64,000 nucleotides of DNA from Acidobacteriota bacterium (GTDB lineage: Bacteria; Acidobacteriota; Blastocatellia; Pyrinomonadales; Pyrinomonadaceae), in NCBI GenBank assembly GCA_019639135.1, contig JAHBSL010000010.1, forward strand, positions 62,001-126,000. The letters are read 5' to 3'. Positions 1,780-10,959 of the stretch are shown in pieces. The notes under the pieces were generated by a model. That model saw only the letters and a program-made list of their open reading frames with translations, had not been told where the DNA came from and did no database searches. A program made the position numbers and the translations under genes. Numbering within the stretch: position 1 is the first letter of the stretch; each line of letters starts with the position of its first letter.

Positions 1780-2705
1780 ACGCTATGGAAGTGCAGCAAG
1801 GATCTGACGAATATGTTTGGACTGCTCAGGACTGCCCGATATGCGGAGCCACTCCGGATACGTTTGTCGGAAAGCGCGGAGGCAAGTCTCATCGCGAAGG
1901 CCTCGGCGTGGAATGCGAGGTTTGGAAGTGCTCTAGCTGTTCTTTGGTGTTTCCTAATCCAATGCCGTTTCCGAAAGGCGGGCTAGGGCAGCACTATGAC
2001 GTTGACGCCGATGACTACTTTAAAGAACACGATGTGGAGGGGCGTCTTGGCGGGGCGAGATCACTTCTTGAGGCGGCGGAACGAATACTTGGTCACAAAG
2101 GCAAGTTACTGGATGTCGGCGTTGGGCGAGGCGAAACACTTTTAGCGGCACAGGAACTTGGGTGGGATGCCGAGGGCGTAGAACCTTCAAAAACCTTCGC
2201 TGATTATGCCGAAAAACGAACCGGCTTGAAGATCTGGCGAGAGCCGATCGAGGATTCCTCGGTGCCGGACGACACCTATGATGTAGTTGTCTTGGCGGCG
2301 GTGCTTGAGCATCTTTACAATCCTGATGAGATCATCCGCCGAATTAGCAAAGCATTGAAGCCTGGCGGTATTCTTTATCTCGATGTGCCAAATGAGGCCG
2401 GCCTGTATTTTCGAGTCGGTAACGCATATCAACGGCTGCGGGGACGCGATTGGTGCGTGAATCTTGCTCCTACCTTCTCACCGTTTCATGTTTTCGGGTT
2501 CAGCCCGAAGGCATTACGAAAACTGCTAAGCAAATACGGGCTTTCACCGGTTTACTGGAATGTTTATCCGGGAACTAGCCTTGTGCCAAGTCGCGGGGGC
2601 GTTATTGGTCTAGTTGAAAGTGCTGCTTCAAAGTTCGTCACCGGAATAAGTAGCTACGGAGAAATGGGAACCTATATCGAAACCTGGGCCAGAAAGACCC
2701 AATGA
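1776..2705 (+). CDS. Class I SAM-dependent methyltransferase with N-terminal zinc ribbon
   Basis: The product has 309 residues. An N-terminal zinc-ribbon (CPICG near residue 20, then WKCSSCSLVFPNP) is followed by a Rossmann methyltransferase. Motif I is LLDVGVGRGETLLAA, and the DVVVLAAVLEHLYNPDEI and LKPGGILYLDVPNE segments are motifs II-III. This arrangement is that of Methyltransf_23-type enzymes that modify sugars or lipid-linked glycans in polysaccharide loci. The ATG overlaps the previous stop as ATGA, and its own stop overlaps the next start in the same way, so it is translationally coupled on both sides. The acceptor (probably a sugar hydroxyl) cannot be told from sequence. Confidence 0.85.
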   Translation: MNAMEVQQGSDEYVWTAQDCPICGATPDTFVGKRGGKSHREGLGVECEVWKCSSCSLVFPNPMPFPKGGLGQHYDVDADDYFKEHDVEGRLGGARSLLEAAERILGHKGKLLDVGVGRGETLLAAQELGWDAEGVEPSKTFADYAEKRTGLKIWREPIEDSSVPDDTYDVVVLAAVLEHLYNPDEIIRRISKALKPGGILYLDVPNEAGLYFRVGNAYQRLRGRDWCVNLAPTFSPFHVFGFSPKALRKLLSKYGLSPVYWNVYPGTSLVPSRGGVIGLVESAASKFVTGISSYGEMGTYIETWARKTQ

Positions 2706-3814
2706 AACCAGACATCCAGATCCGGGTAAAAGCTCTTGCCTCTTATCCTAAACAGGCGGCGGCGACGCGGTTTCGGGTCGAGCAGTTCGTTGGGCCGCTT
2801 CGGGAGCGGGGAATCGAGCTTGAGCTGAGTCCGTTCCTTTCTGCGGAGCAATTTGCCGAAATGTATAAGCCGGGCGGTTCGCTGAAAAAGGCAGCGCGGA
2901 TCGCCCGAAGTTTTTTGCGCAGAATTGCGGAGGCAACGAGGGTCGGAAAATATGATCTTCTGTTCGTCCAGCGGGAGGCGATGTTCTTCGGGCCGGAGAT
3001 ATTTGAATGGCTTTTTCAGATTGCCGGCCGGGTTCCGATGGTCCTCGACCTTGATGATGCGACCTACGTTCCATATGCGAGCCCTACGTATGGAAAACTC
3101 GGAAGTGCATTGAAGTTTTTCGGCAAAACGGACAGGCTTATCCGCCGCTCGGCCGCGGTAACCTGCGGAAACAGGTTCATTGCCGAGTATGTTTCCAAGT
3201 TGGGAACCCGGGCCGAAGTTGTTCCCACCGTTGTCGATACTGGAGTTTTTCGCCCGGTTGAGAAAGATAACAAGATCCCTGTCGTCGGCTGGGTGGGCAC
3301 ACACTCCACATTTCCTTCGCTTGAGTCTCTGTTACCTGTTCTTGAAAAACTTGCGGCGAAGCATGAGTTTGTCTTAAGGGTCGTCGGCTCGGGCCGCGAT
3401 GCGATAGAGATCCCGGGCGTTCGGGCCGAGGTCCTGAAATGGTCGCTTGAACGCGAGGTCGCGGATTTTTGCACGCTGGACGTCGGGCTTTATCCGATAG
3501 TCGTCAGCAGCTCGGCAAACGAGGAATGGCTGAAAGGCAAGTCCGGGTTCAAGGCTATTCAATATCTTGCCGCCGGTGTGCCGTTCGTTATGTCTCCGGT
3601 CGGCGTCTGTGCCGAGATCGGACGGCCCGGCGAAACGCACTTCAATGCCGAATCGGCGGAAGATTGGTATAATTCGCTTGATAAGTTGCTCGGCGACGCA
3701 GGTCTCCGCCAAAAAATGGGAGAAAGCGGCCGGGCGCACTCGCTGGAGAACTATACGGTCGAAAAACAGGCAGATAGGCTTGCCGAGGTGTTCAGAGCGG
3801 CGAGGAACAGTTAA
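2702..3814 (+). CDS. Glycosyltransferase family 4
   Basis: The product has 370 residues. The N-terminal half carries YDLLFVQREAMFFGPE and the MVLDLDDATY segment common in one GT4 subgroup. The C-terminal GT-B half has VVGWVGTHSTFPSLESL, FVLRVVGSG and KAIQYLAAGVPFVMSPVGV, followed by a Glu-containing donor loop. It starts by ATGA overlap with the methyltransferase, so it belongs to the same operon. Its stop codon (3812-3814) falls inside the first arm of the repeat cassette that separates it from the carbamoyltransferase gene. It should transfer a nucleotide-activated sugar in repeat-unit assembly; donor and linkage are unknown. Confidence 0.87.
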   Translation: MKPDIQIRVKALASYPKQAAATRFRVEQFVGPLRERGIELELSPFLSAEQFAEMYKPGGSLKKAARIARSFLRRIAEATRVGKYDLLFVQREAMFFGPEIFEWLFQIAGRVPMVLDLDDATYVPYASPTYGKLGSALKFFGKTDRLIRRSAAVTCGNRFIAEYVSKLGTRAEVVPTVVDTGVFRPVEKDNKIPVVGWVGTHSTFPSLESLLPVLEKLAAKHEFVLRVVGSGRDAIEIPGVRAEVLKWSLEREVADFCTLDVGLYPIVVSSSANEEWLKGKSGFKAIQYLAAGVPFVMSPVGVCAEIGRPGETHFNAESAEDWYNSLDKLLGDAGLRQKMGESGRAHSLENYTVEKQADRLAEVFRAARNS

Positions 3815-3957
3815 CAACGGATCTGCGCAGATTTTCGCGGATTATTTTTTGATTGTTTTGGTTGCGGGAAGCTGAGTGGAATCTGGTTTGGGGGCAAAAG
3901 ATCCAGCGGTTGTTAATGAAATGGCCGCCTAATTAATCCGTGGAATCCGCTGCAGAA
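3811..3957. repeat. Inverted-repeat module 1 of GxxExxY-associated arms
   Basis: The left arm (3811-3846) starts TTAACAACGGATCTGCGCAG and continues ATTTTCGCGGATTATT. The right arm (3931-3957) is a diverged reverse complement (AATTAATCCGTGGAATCCGC...). The arms are built from imperfect 10-11 bp units of the type GCGGATTTTC. The roughly 80 bp between them are AT-richer and hold no gene. The left arm begins at the stop codon of the upstream glycosyltransferase. Confidence 0.7.
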
Positions 3958-3961
3958 ATGG

Positions 3962-4121
3962 TTAACAACGGATTTACGCAGATTTTCGAGGATTATTTTG
4001 GGTTTATAGGTTGGTTTCGAATGCTTTTTGGATCGCGAAGAAAGGCTATTGAACCAATCTTTTGAACTTGGTCAAGTCTTTTGGATAACTGATCTGCGTG
4101 AATCGGGGTTAATCCGTTGTA
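3962..4121. repeat. Inverted-repeat module 2 of GxxExxY-associated arms
   Basis: The left arm (3962-3997) starts TTAACAACGGATTTACGCAG. The right arm (4091-4121) carries GATCTGCGTGAATCGGGGTT then AATCCGTTGTAA, the reverse complement with a few changes. It begins 4 bp after module 1, and its right arm ends 7 bp before the ATG of the GxxExxY gene. The internal sequence is unrelated to that of modules 1 and 3; only the arms are conserved. No gene is seen inside. Confidence 0.72.
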
Positions 4122-4128
4122 AAAATAT

Positions 4129-4512
4129 ATGAGTGAGGGATTGCTTCACGGTGATCTTACGTACAAGATCATCGGGATAGGGATGCAGGTTCATAGCACT
4201 CTGGGTCACGGATTCCTTGAGAAGGTCTATGAAAATTCGATGATGGTCGCTCTGCGATCGGCGGGCATCTTTTCAGAACAGCAAGTGCCGATCAAGGTCG
4301 TGTTTGAGGGAGTGATAGTCGGCGATTATTTTGCAGATATTCTTGTCGAAAAGACGGTCATCCTTGAGCTAAAAGCATGTGAGCGGATCACGGACATTCA
4401 CAAGGCTCAGGCGTTGAACTATCTGAAAGCGACGGGAATCGATCTTGCTTTGATCCTGAATTTTGGCGCAAAGAGCTTTGAACATCACCGACTGATAAAT
4501 CGGTTAAGGTAA
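4129..4512 (+). CDS. GxxExxY protein (PDDEXK_3-like nuclease fold)
   Basis: This 127-residue protein is a clear member of the GxxExxY family (TIGR04256/PF13366). The signature G28-F-L-E31-K-V-Y34 follows an N-terminal helix ending in VHSTLGHG. The PD-(D/E)XK-like core is seen as DYFAD70 and ILEL with E80 and K82, followed by the helix containing Q94 (HKAQALNYLK), so the candidate catalytic residues are all present. The biological role of this family is not established; a nucleic-acid enzyme is inferred from the fold. The gene is packed between repeat modules: the right arm of module 2 ends just before the ATG, and the left arm of module 3 begins right after the TAA. No Shine-Dalgarno sequence is visible. 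It has no evident part in polysaccharide synthesis and looks like an insertion into that operon. Confidence 0.9.
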   Translation: MSEGLLHGDLTYKIIGIGMQVHSTLGHGFLEKVYENSMMVALRSAGIFSEQQVPIKVVFEGVIVGDYFADILVEKTVILELKACERITDIHKAQALNYLKATGIDLALILNFGAKSFEHHRLINRLR

Positions 4513-4690
4513 GTAACAACGGATAAGCACGGATTTTCGCGGATTATTATATTTAGGCAGGGCATTTCTGAACCGGTAGTTGTCTTTCCTACACCTTTGG
4601 CGCTCAGGCGTTGTGACAAGAGCGTCTTGGGAAGCTCAGGTTCGCTATTCAAACAATATCAATCCGCGTAAATCTGCGATAATCTGTTGT
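4513..4690. repeat. Inverted-repeat module 3 of GxxExxY-associated arms
   Basis: The left arm (4513-4548) starts GTAACAACGGATAAGCACGG then ATTTTCGCGGATTATT. The right arm (4660-4690) reads CAATCCGCGTAAATCTGCGA then TAATCTGTTGT, its inverted counterpart. The left arm begins at the base after the GxxExxY stop codon, and the right arm ends 11 bp before the carbamoyltransferase ATG. Nothing else is recognised in the roughly 110 bp between the arms. Confidence 0.72.
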
Positions 4691-4701
4691 TTTAGATTCC
4701 T

Positions 4702-6408
4702 ATGTATATTTTGGGGCTTACAACTCTTGGCGATTCTGCGGCGGCGATCATTAGGGACGGGCAATTGATCGCTTCGGTCGAGGAAGAGCGTTTCTCGCGG
4801 CGGAAGCACCACAGCGGGTTTCCGTACAAGGCGATCGAATTTTGTTTGAAAGAGGCGGGGATCACGCTTGCCGAGGTCGAGCACGTCGGGCATTATTGGA
4901 AGCCCTGGATACTTCGCCACAAAGCGATGCAGGCGGCAAAGGCCGCTTTTATTTCGCCGGCGATGTTCAAGGCCCGGGCCGACCGGGGAGTTGCACAGGT
5001 CAGCGATAGTTATCTGGGGATGTTCAAGCATCCAAAGCGGCTCCGCGAGCATTTCGGCGAGAGCAATTTTAAGTTCCATTTTCTTGAGCACCATCAAACC
5101 CACGCGGCAAGCGCATTCTTCGTTTCGCCTTTTGAATCGGCCGCGATCCTTACCTGGGACGGCACGGGCGAAGATACGACCACGCTTTTTTGTCGGGGAA
5201 TGGGAAACAAGCTCGAGGTCCTGAAACGCATCAAGCTGCCGCATAGCCTGGGGCAGTTCTATTCGGCAGTGACGAACTTTATCGGGTTCGATATGTTCGC
5301 GGGCGATGAATGGAAGGTGATGGGCCTTGCGGCCTACGGAAAGCCTAAGTATTACGACTTTTTCCGCGAGAAAGTGCTGACGACGAACGGCAGCGGCGAC
5401 TTCCGTTTCAATATCAAGGTGCTCGACCACCATCTTGCAAAGCACTACCAGTTTCCGGACGCGATAGTTAAAGAACTCGGCCCTGGGAGAAAGCCCGGCG
5501 AGGAGCTTACCGAGCATCACTGGGACATTGCATGTTCGGCACAGAAGGCGCTCGAAGATACGGCCATCTATCTCGTCAAAAAGCTCCACGAGATGACCGG
5601 CGAAGAGAATCTCTGTCTGGCCGGCGGCGTGGCCTTCAATTCGGTAATGAACGGAAGGATCTTTCACGAGACGCCGTTCAAGCGGTTCTTTGTCCAGCCC
5701 GCCGCGGGCGATGCCGGGTGTTCGCTCGGTGCGGCGTATTACGTCTGGAACCAGAAGCTTGGTCGGCCTCGTGATTTTGTAATGCGGCATGCATATTGGG
5801 GGCCGGGTTTCTCTAATGAGGAATGCCGGGCGGCTCTCGATGCGGCCGGTTTGGTCTATGAGACTTTGCCCGATGAGGAACTGCTCCCGCGGCTTGCAAA
5901 GATGCTCAGCGAAGGGGCGATCGTCGGCTGGTTCAATGGCCGGATGGAGCTCGGGCCACGGGCACTTGGGGCAAGAAGTTTTCTTGCCGATCCGCGGCGA
6001 GCGGATATGCGCGAGATACTGAACCACAAGGTGAAGCTCCGTGAATGGTTCCGGCCGCTCGCGCCTTCAATGCATGAAGAGCACGGTCGCGAGGTCTTTG
6101 GCGTAGAGCATCATGATCCGTTCATGATCACCGTTATCGAGGTCGCCGAAGAATATAAGTCGAAAATACCGGCCGTGGTCCACGTTGACGGGACAGCCCG
6201 GCCGCAGATGGTCAGCCGCGAGACGAATCCGCGTTACTGGAACCTGATCAACGAGTTCAAGAAGCTGACCGGTATTCCGATGCTTCTCAATACATCGTTC
6301 AATGTTCAGGAGCCGATAGTCTGCACGCCGGAGAACGCGATAAATACTTTCCGCAACGCGAACTTTGACGCCCTTGTCCTTGAGAATAACCTCGTCGTCC
6401 GCCAGTAG
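4702..6408 (+). CDS. Carbamoyltransferase, NodU/CmcH/TobZ family
   Basis: This 568-residue cytoplasmic enzyme should transfer a carbamoyl group from carbamoyl phosphate to a sugar hydroxyl through a carbamoyl-adenylate. The N-terminal Kae1/ASKHA-like domain starts MYILGLTTLGDSAAAII and carries the metal-binding HHQTHAASAFF, TWDGTGE and LAGGVAFNSVMN segments. The C-terminal YrdC-like domain has VGWFNGRMELGPRALGARSF, WFRPLAPS and LNTSFN. Length and domain order match the family. The gene lies within an EPS locus, so carbamoylation of the exported glycan is the likely job. The ATG directly follows a repeat arm and has no good ribosome-binding site. The long antisense frame over this gene is a codon-bias shadow. 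Confidence 0.93.
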   Translation: MYILGLTTLGDSAAAIIRDGQLIASVEEERFSRRKHHSGFPYKAIEFCLKEAGITLAEVEHVGHYWKPWILRHKAMQAAKAAFISPAMFKARADRGVAQVSDSYLGMFKHPKRLREHFGESNFKFHFLEHHQTHAASAFFVSPFESAAILTWDGTGEDTTTLFCRGMGNKLEVLKRIKLPHSLGQFYSAVTNFIGFDMFAGDEWKVMGLAAYGKPKYYDFFREKVLTTNGSGDFRFNIKVLDHHLAKHYQFPDAIVKELGPGRKPGEELTEHHWDIACSAQKALEDTAIYLVKKLHEMTGEENLCLAGGVAFNSVMNGRIFHETPFKRFFVQPAAGDAGCSLGAAYYVWNQKLGRPRDFVMRHAYWGPGFSNEECRAALDAAGLVYETLPDEELLPRLAKMLSEGAIVGWFNGRMELGPRALGARSFLADPRRADMREILNHKVKLREWFRPLAPSMHEEHGREVFGVEHHDPFMITVIEVAEEYKSKIPAVVHVDGTARPQMVSRETNPRYWNLINEFKKLTGIPMLLNTSFNVQEPIVCTPENAINTFRNANFDALVLENNLVVRQ

Positions 6409-9691: not shown

Positions 9692-10438
9692 ATGAAGGGT
9701 GTAATACTTGCGGGCGGGCTTGGTTCCCGGCTTTTTCCGCTAACGAAGATAACCAACAAGCATCTTCTGCCGGTCTATGACCAGCCGATGATCTATTATC
9801 CGATCCGGACACTGATCAACGCCGGCATTGACGACATCATGATCGTTACGGGCGGAAACTCGGCAGGTGATTTTTTGAAGCTGCTCGGCAACGGAAAGGA
9901 CTTCGGCCTCAAGCATCTGAACTATACCTATCAGGAAGGCGAGGGCGGAATTGCCGATGCACTTTCGCTCGTCGAGCATTTTGCCGATGATGAACCGATC
10001 TGTGTCGTGCTCGGCGATAACATAATCGAGCGGAACATCCGGCAGGCGGCTGATGAATACCGTGCCCAAGGCCGCGGGGCAAAAATAATGCTCAAAGAGG
10101 TTCACGACCCGCAGCGTTTCGGTGTCCCCGAACTTGATCGCGACAAGGTGCTTCGTATCGAGGAGAAGCCTTCGGAACCGAAATCGAGTTACGCCGTTAT
10201 CGGCATCTATTTTTACGACAACACGGTGTTTGACGTCATCAAGACGCTCGTTCCGTCCGATCGCGGCGAACTGGAGATCACGGATGTGAACAACCACTAC
10301 ATCGAGCGGGGCGAGATGACCTGGAACGAACTTGACGGCTGGTGGACGGATGCCGGGACGTTTGAGAGCCTTTTGCGGGCCTCGAATCTGGTTGCAGAAT
10401 CGGGTGCGAACAATCTCGGTTTAGGTTTGGTAGGGTAG
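9692..10438 (+). CDS. Sugar-phosphate nucleotidyltransferase (RmlA-like, short form)
   Basis: The product has 248 residues. The nucleotide-binding signature KGVILAGGLGSRLFPLTKIT is at the N-terminus, with KHLLPVYDQPMIYYPI and VVLGDNII (metal/sugar site), and DGWWTDAGTFESLL near the end. It should make an NDP-sugar, most likely dTDP-glucose, from sugar-1-phosphate and NTP. It is about 40 residues shorter than classical RmlA, lacking the C-terminal allosteric extension, as in the short thymidylyltransferase group. RmlB and RmlD are not in the window, so the product sugar cannot be assigned. An AAGAAAGG ribosome-binding site precedes the ATG. Confidence 0.88.
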   Translation: MKGVILAGGLGSRLFPLTKITNKHLLPVYDQPMIYYPIRTLINAGIDDIMIVTGGNSAGDFLKLLGNGKDFGLKHLNYTYQEGEGGIADALSLVEHFADDEPICVVLGDNIIERNIRQAADEYRAQGRGAKIMLKEVHDPQRFGVPELDRDKVLRIEEKPSEPKSSYAVIGIYFYDNTVFDVIKTLVPSDRGELEITDVNNHYIERGEMTWNELDGWWTDAGTFESLLRASNLVAESGANNLGLGLVG

Positions 10439-10458
10439 TAGATCAATGCAAAAGAAAC

Positions 10459-10959
10459 ATGGCAGAGACAAAGAAATCAACGATAGAATTTACCGATGGT
10501 GAGATCAAGGACGTTGTCGTCTATAAGCTAAAGAAATATCACGACGACCGCGGTTGGCTTGCAGAGCTTTTCAGGCACGATGAACTACCCGAGGAGTTCT
10601 ATCCAGTGATGTCATATATTTCGTTTACAAAGCCCGGCATCGCCCGTGGCCCGCACGAACACGTCGATCAGGCCGACCTTTTCTGCTTTATCGGCCCATC
10701 GACATTCAATATGCGAATGTGGGACAATCGGCCGGATTCGCCTACGTTCAATCATATGATGTCCTTCGACGCCGGCATCGACGAGCCGTTGGCCGTCGTC
10801 GTGCCAAGGGGCGTTGTGCATGGCTATAAGAACATAGGTGATACGGATGGAATGGTCATCAACTGCCCGAACCGGCTCTATATGGGCGAGGGCAAGAAAG
10901 AACCGATAGATGAGATCCGCCATGAGGACGACCCCGAAACGCCCTATCGGATGGATTAA
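10459..10959 (+). CDS. RmlC-like cupin (dTDP-4-dehydrorhamnose 3,5-epimerase family)
   Basis: The product has 166 residues and a double-stranded beta-helix fold. It carries YHDDRGWLAELFRHDELP, the His motif RGPHEHVDQADLFCFI and the second cupin segment VVVPRGVVHGYKNIG. These match the RmlC/FdtA-like epimerase/isomerase superfamily. The usual RGLHFQ motif is replaced by RGPHEH, so the exact reaction (3,5-epimerase, 3-epimerase or 3,4-ketoisomerase) is uncertain. It lies 20 bp after the nucleotidyltransferase gene and probably acts on the sugar nucleotide that enzyme makes. Confidence 0.82.
   Translation: MAETKKSTIEFTDGEIKDVVVYKLKKYHDDRGWLAELFRHDELPEEFYPVMSYISFTKPGIARGPHEHVDQADLFCFIGPSTFNMRMWDNRPDSPTFNHMMSFDAGIDEPLAVVVPRGVVHGYKNIGDTDGMVINCPNRLYMGEGKKEPIDEIRHEDDPETPYRMD

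Follow-up and report, generated by a model that had tools for sequence, protein, structure and literature searches.

A small gene of the GxxExxY family, enclosed by its own inverted repeat arms, was found between two host genes in a 64,000-nt stretch of an Acidobacteriota genome (the whole stretch is called the window below), and the same cassette was present at that site in some relatives of the bacterium and absent in others. We consider it moderately probable that the encoded protein, a predicted nuclease, recognizes the repeated units of the arms and mobilizes the cassette as well as arm copies that lack a gene, much as a RAYT acts on its REPINs.

The cassette in the window

The cassette is situated between a glycosyltransferase gene (2702..3814, + strand) on its 5' side and a carbamoyltransferase gene (4702..6408, +) on its 3' side. 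An intact GxxExxY gene (4129..4512, +) is surrounded by six arms that pair up as three inverted modules, each arm being at the coordinates given in the original prediction. Module 1 consists of arm 1 (3811..3847, +) and arm 2 (3930..3957, −), the latter read by eye and the weakest and most divergent of the six; module 2 consists of arm 3 (3962..3998, +) and arm 4 (4087..4123, −); and module 3 consists of arm 5 (4514..4550, +) and arm 6 (4661..4691, −). As had been foreseen, the gene fills the space between modules 2 and 3, with arm 4 ending 5–8 nt before its ATG and arm 5 starting 1–2 nt past its TAA, and the outer edges reach the host genes: arm 1 overlaps the stop codon of the glycosyltransferase, and arm 6 ends about 10 nt short of the ATG of the carbamoyltransferase at 4702. 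Aligned across the gene, the inverted repeat scored 41. Elsewhere in the window, the first open reading frame (253-1779, a glycosyltransferase by eye) has, close to its N-terminus, a peptide (ATTPSAEAAATPPKQGGE...) repeated three times in tandem with near identity, apparently through an in-frame insertion of repeats.

When the arm pattern was searched through the 4.09 Mb genome with at most 3 mismatches, it occurred at 14 places, as against none for the reversed control, and the arrangement is thus more than chance. Five of the 14 places were window arms, four made up two gene-less hairpin pairs of the same CGGAT-type pattern (C1:100050 and C9:43910), and five were weak or isolated. When 464 kb were scanned, made up of the window and 20 other stretches of its genome (400 kb in all), three gene-sized brackets came to light: one without an open reading frame, one around a Y1-transposase (RAYT-like) gene, and the window cassette. 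REP palindromes carry a GTAG-type tag; read directly, all six window arms lacked GTAG internally.

The protein of 127 aa scored 136.3 bits against TIGR04256 (cut-off 35) and 130.7 against PF13366 (cut-off 22); PF13366 was the sole domain found, and a Y1 (HUH) transposase domain was absent. Its PD-(D/E)XK catalytic residues are retained, with an E80-x-K82 motif; across 77 sequences E31, Y34, D70, E80, Q94 and Y98 were invariant and K82 was kept in at least 90%. The closest solved folds were DNA nucleases (Cas4, lambda-type exonuclease and Hjc), with RNA-acting ones further down the list, and the protein is predicted to be a nuclease resembling Cas4 and lambda exonuclease. The PDB held no sequence relative (one chance match, E 1), and no match was found to RNA-family (Rfam), defence (PADLOC, 0 families) or phage profiles; the paralogue L001 gave a weak Cas4 match among the PADLOC models (E 0.0092). 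A tblastn search with the window protein matched 8 of 72,556 plasmid records and none of 50,697 phage records, so that known vehicles do not account for the spread of the family. The protein tree, in which phylum changes 18 times among 47 rows from 14 phyla, gives a weak indication that GxxExxY genes may have been transferred between phyla. Literature searches returned passing mentions of GxxExxY and no settled role for the family; a search with twelve arm strings found no relevant paper.

Brackets and arm syntax across genomes

Loci were assembled from two sets. The first drew on 60 genomes belonging to the window's genus and class, its own genome among them, and comprised, among the matches listed, 29 loci fetched as such and 110 more fetched by region. 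The second comprised 80 of 119 confirmed relatives on GTDB contigs, picked for likeness to the window protein; by their titles they belong to Acidobacteriota, Bacteroidetes, Ignavibacteria, Nitrospirae, Cloacimonadota, Chloroflexi, relatives of Geobacter and Desulfobacterales, candidate phyla and archaea. Three duplicate loci (L141, L201 and L211) were taken out, and L089 lacked one flank. A bracket was called where the upstream flank aligned to the reverse complement of the downstream flank with a score of at least 28.

By this measure a bracketing inverted repeat was present at 166 of the 223 GxxExxY loci with both flanks (74%; many bacterial phyla and a few archaea): 7 of 8 in the window's own genome, 110 of 140 in relatives and 49 of 75 in the others. 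Of six archaeal loci, two had a bracket. The remaining 57 of 223 had no bracket at that score. With one flank shuffled the count fell to 0 of 223; among control ORFs, drawn from the first 116 loci, it was 8 of 200, and among mismatched flank pairs 8.6% of 922. Arms equally common beside unrelated genes, the outcome that would have spoken against the predicted enrichment, did not occur. The window's genome (4.09 Mb in 41 contigs) has eight GxxExxY genes, seven of them bracketed by arms of one design and different sequence, with units CGCAGAG, CACAGAG, CGCAAAG and CACGAAA, and CGCGGAT/CGCAGAT in the window copy. The description of the arms as one repeat type held for that copy; generally, arm sequence is particular to each GxxExxY lineage.

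An arm is built from about 3–4 units, each some 7 nt long with the approximate form C-R-C-N-(G/A)-A-x; these are spaced 8–12 nt from start to start, most commonly 9 or 10. The extraction of units used a prior favouring C and G, and a few odd consensus units remain. Between the arms of a locus, the letters agreed in 2235 of 2347 unit positions (95.2%), in 284 of 390 free fourth positions and in 448 of 690 spacer positions (64.9%). Units were more conserved than spacers in 103 of 131 loci, tied in 14 and less conserved in 14, a count that leans toward the units since these were picked by regularity within arms and the arms by alignment. What is kept is the units themselves rather than pairing between bases, which is what sites for a protein would lead one to expect.

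The arms might alternatively act in RNA, folding in the operon mRNA so that the encoded enzyme or RNase III cuts out or trims the cassette in the manner of a 23S rRNA intervening sequence and hides the insertion from the host. In keeping with this, where a bracketed gene had a long open frame on each side, it ran in the direction of both in 106 of 140 cases, a crude count made on open frames of at least 400 nt without gene calling; and in Coxiella the intervening sequence, 428 nt long and containing the ORF of an S23 protein, is cut out by RNase III (PMC4990558). We nevertheless regard an RNA-level role as very improbable: the spacers between units are not kept complementary as the units are (64.9% against 95.2%), no Rfam family matched, and the best-ranked solved folds belong to DNA nucleases, with RNA-acting enzymes lower down.

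Inheritance, gain and loss

Covariation of arms with protein was tested on 132 of 193 loci (bracket score of at least 30 and an intact ORF), before the last 30 loci had been fetched. Across genomes, protein similarity correlated with arm similarity (Mantel rho 0.413); the maximum among 1000 within-genome shuffles of arms was 0.283, so that none of the 1000 was as high. In a paralogue test on 70 loci from multi-copy genomes, the arm of the nearest foreign protein was compared with the cognate arm and with the arms of paralogues. The cognate arm was closer in 176 of 182 comparisons, with 2 ties and 4 losses. Leaving out syntenic pairs (those with homologous outer flanks) gave 160 wins, 4 ties and 18 losses, and control DNA 450–500 nt away gave 75 wins, 35 ties and 72 losses. 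The unit's last letter changed 5 times on a tree of 110 loci, against at least 36 changes in 40 shuffles and at least 20 in 40 within-genome shuffles; the fifth letter changed 7 times on a tree of 122 loci, against at least 20 and at least 14, respectively. Taken together, the paralogue test, the Mantel correlation and the letter changes show, at the level of sequence comparison, that arm type follows the protein and not the genome, and that gene and arms have been inherited together and have changed in step. The natural reading would be that the GxxExxY protein physically recognizes its arms.

A residue-level recognition code was considered and is not claimed. Residue 23 was R or K in 34 of 38 proteins with G-ending units and N in 54 of 63 with T-ending units; the tree held 1–2 independent pairs for the unit's last letter and 4–7 for the fifth, and these independent changes are too few for proof.

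The original prediction called for empty sites among sister strains, and these were found. Of 30 loci with a glycosyltransferase match that were read, 12 had the carbamoyltransferase nearby: 2 with the cassette (the window included), 1 with two small genes, 3 with a short empty gap and 6 with other genes between. The cassette, with all its arms, stands at the junction in the window's own genome (G000) and in G031; in G019, whose glycosyltransferase is the closest at 89%, two other small genes replace it (L213:2610-3130), one a DUF2442 gene (Pfam) and the other, we presume, DUF4160-like. The junction lacks the cassette in G015 (116 nt), in G006 (263 nt) and in G016 (19 nt), the last a loose comparison because its glycosyltransferase is only 33% identical. 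The cassette is thus not fixed at this site. An ORF resembling, by eye, a small gene of the G019 junction also precedes the carbamoyltransferase in L231.

Further sites behaved similarly. Between the same carbamoyltransferase and an epimerase (identified by eye), G007 has a related cassette spanning 539 nt and G027 only 6 nt; G025 and G008 carry cassettes of 461 and about 450 nt where the window's own genome has only 20 or 2 nt; and positions 10413-10510 of the window are empty, where G002 and G033 hold GxxExxY genes with CAAAG-type arms (the G002 bracket scored 24, below the cut). A classical DD(E/D) transposon has terminal inverted repeats and a target-site duplication. The cassettes have inverted ends; at the precise empty sites, where flanks are only about 67–86% identical, no target-site duplication was seen by eye, and no intermediate was seen. 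Comparison of these orthologous sites shows gene and arms gained or lost as a block, and it is by such comparison that its mobility is shown.

Gene-less hairpins were counted for two unit pairs in 41 genomes of the genus, each hairpin giving several hits. The ACAGGAT pair gave 0 to 40 hits per genome and the CACGAAT pair 0 to 94, with 0–1 per strand for the reversed control. Genomes were scored as having a cognate gene from the fetched loci, G035 (for ACAGGAT) through an 88-aa remnant (L354), so that the inventories behind the following comparisons are incomplete. After removal of hits at GxxExxY genes, the median for ACAGGAT was 15.5 in 6 genomes with a known cognate gene and 0 in the other 35 (p 0.0017), and for CACGAAT it was 13 in 5 genomes and 4.5 in the other 36 (p 0.081); with those hits left in, p was 0.001 and 0.033, respectively. 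The link between abundance and gene holds for ACAGGAT, one of the two types tested. ACAGGAT hairpins also occurred where no cognate gene was known (40 hits in G009, 22 in G025 and 10 in the window's genome), and CACGAAT hits occurred in genomes with no PF13366 match (17 in G004 and 13 in G022).

The 400-kb sample of the window's genome yielded three more hairpins of CAGAG type that enclose no gene. The C1:100050 hairpin was also present in G031. At the spot orthologous to C9:43910, the genomes G019, G009, G033 and G061 have a different module, which in G019 is one type nested inside another; G012 has another palindrome, G031 has an unrelated insert, and G003 and G013 have nothing. By these comparisons, the solo hairpins are shown to be dispersed and to turn over at one orthologous spot. 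Four short-looped solo hairpins folded far better than shuffled sequences (z −3.7 to −8.2); in the window, the long-looped module 1 and module 2 trimmed from 3980 did not (z −1.3 and −0.1), which counts against the reading we prefer. Other hairpins, with tandem-unit arms of different kinds, were seen in the genome sample at L243:249-316, L251:15461-15530 and L254:1893-1948 (GCAGTAAGC, AGTGACGAG and AACTGTTA-like).

The dispersal of hairpins bears on the proposal that the arms are operators through which the protein represses its own transcription, the cassette spreading by horizontal transfer like any other selfish or addictive gene. Arms do lie only a few nt from the start codon, and their repeated units are conserved relative to spacers and resemble binding sites. 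We find this account improbable, however, in that an arm also follows the stop codon, in some copies abutting or overlapping the gene's 3' end, and the same arms occur as gene-less hairpins that turn over at one spot.

The bracket is shared with a second kind of gene. Genes for four-helix-bundle proteins (23S IVP; TIGR02436/PF05635) were bracketed likewise in 10 of 17 matches from the window's own genome (L262-L278) and 23 of 29 from relatives (L279-L307), against 5.4% of 812 mismatched pairs, each with its own short tandem unit. In one slot G019 and G015 have a GxxExxY gene (L155 and L200; bracket scores 28 and 25) and the window's genome has a four-helix-bundle gene (L273 1429-1863; score 31). 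The latter genome also contains a separate Y1_Tnp (RAYT-like) gene with a long inverted-repeat bracket (L258:425-1141). The claim that gene and repeats form a cassette was borne out in that the bracket is enriched at GxxExxY genes, but the architecture is not unique to them. The four-helix-bundle proteins are not known to be nucleases; a nuclease is thus not required for the architecture, and a shared external mover or a purely binding role may be involved instead. This family is the main source of doubt about the reading we prefer.

Such a mover would be host recombination, replication template switching or another element, carrying all bracketed cassettes while gene and arms travel together and the protein binds the arms for another purpose, for example silencing or protecting. 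The four-helix-bundle brackets, the slot occupied by either kind of gene, and solo hairpins in genomes with no PF13366 match all point that way. Against it, arm type tightly tracks the GxxExxY protein, whereas the protein–arm correlation at four-helix-bundle loci was weak (n=33; Mantel rho 0.087, with 108 of 1000 permutations as high), a small own-paralogue test of 25/1/1 notwithstanding; ACAGGAT solo hairpins are more abundant where a cognate gene is known; and the active site is retained. We judge movement by other machinery rather unlikely.

Mechanism and comparison with known systems

Under the reading we prefer, the GxxExxY nuclease itself would cut and move the arms. Monomers of the protein would bind successive arm units, roughly one helical turn apart; the nuclease would then cut or nick at the arms, perhaps when these are extruded as hairpins; and intergenic gaps would receive copies of the element through repair or replication. 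By inserting co-directionally, after one stop codon and before the next start codon, the element would do the host operon almost no harm. A bolder view is possible, and we offer it tentatively: GxxExxY cassettes may be a new class of minimal self-mobilizing element (about 0.45–0.9 kb), in which a single-domain Cas4-like nuclease reads a spaced, mutable code of 7-nt units in its own arms, each lineage having a private repeat language and private hairpins spread through the genome, with four-helix-bundle cassettes as a second, non-nuclease member competing for the same intergenic slots.

The arms provide a family without a settled role with a testable substrate, and they link GxxExxY proteins to hairpins that form a large family dispersed through environmental genomes. 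The paired natural variation of protein and DNA unit is also a data set for the study of a protein–DNA recognition code.

Set beside the Cas4, lambda-type exonuclease and Hjc families, the window protein differs in standing alone, with 127 aa and a glycosyltransferase and a carbamoyltransferase for neighbours; we know of no cognate inverted arms in those families. The 23S rRNA intervening sequence with its S23 protein (PMC4990558) is alike in being about 430 nt long, carrying one small gene and having been horizontally acquired; it differs in sitting within 23S rRNA, in being excised as RNA by RNase III and in encoding an unrelated protein.

The closer likeness, and one that the original prediction drew aptly, is to RAYT/REP (REPIN) systems. 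In both kinds of system (for RAYT/REP, PMC2817692 and PMC3116915) inverted repeats enclose the gene and vary together with its protein, hairpins without a gene are dispersed, and the sites are extragenic. Inverted brackets, co-evolution with the protein and gene-linked abundance are features named in the first RAYT/REP description (PMC2817692); the first two recur with GxxExxY, the third for one of the two hairpin types tested. The differences are that the GxxExxY enzyme is of PD-(D/E)XK type (PF13366) and RAYT of Y1/HUH type; that GxxExxY arms are 3–4 spaced units and REP is one palindrome; that several GxxExxY cassettes with different arms occur in one genome; that these cassettes occupy orthologous sites in only some sister species; and that the link between repeat number and gene is weaker for GxxExxY. 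The comparison suggests more than one origin for the RAYT/REPIN way of life, in unrelated proteins.
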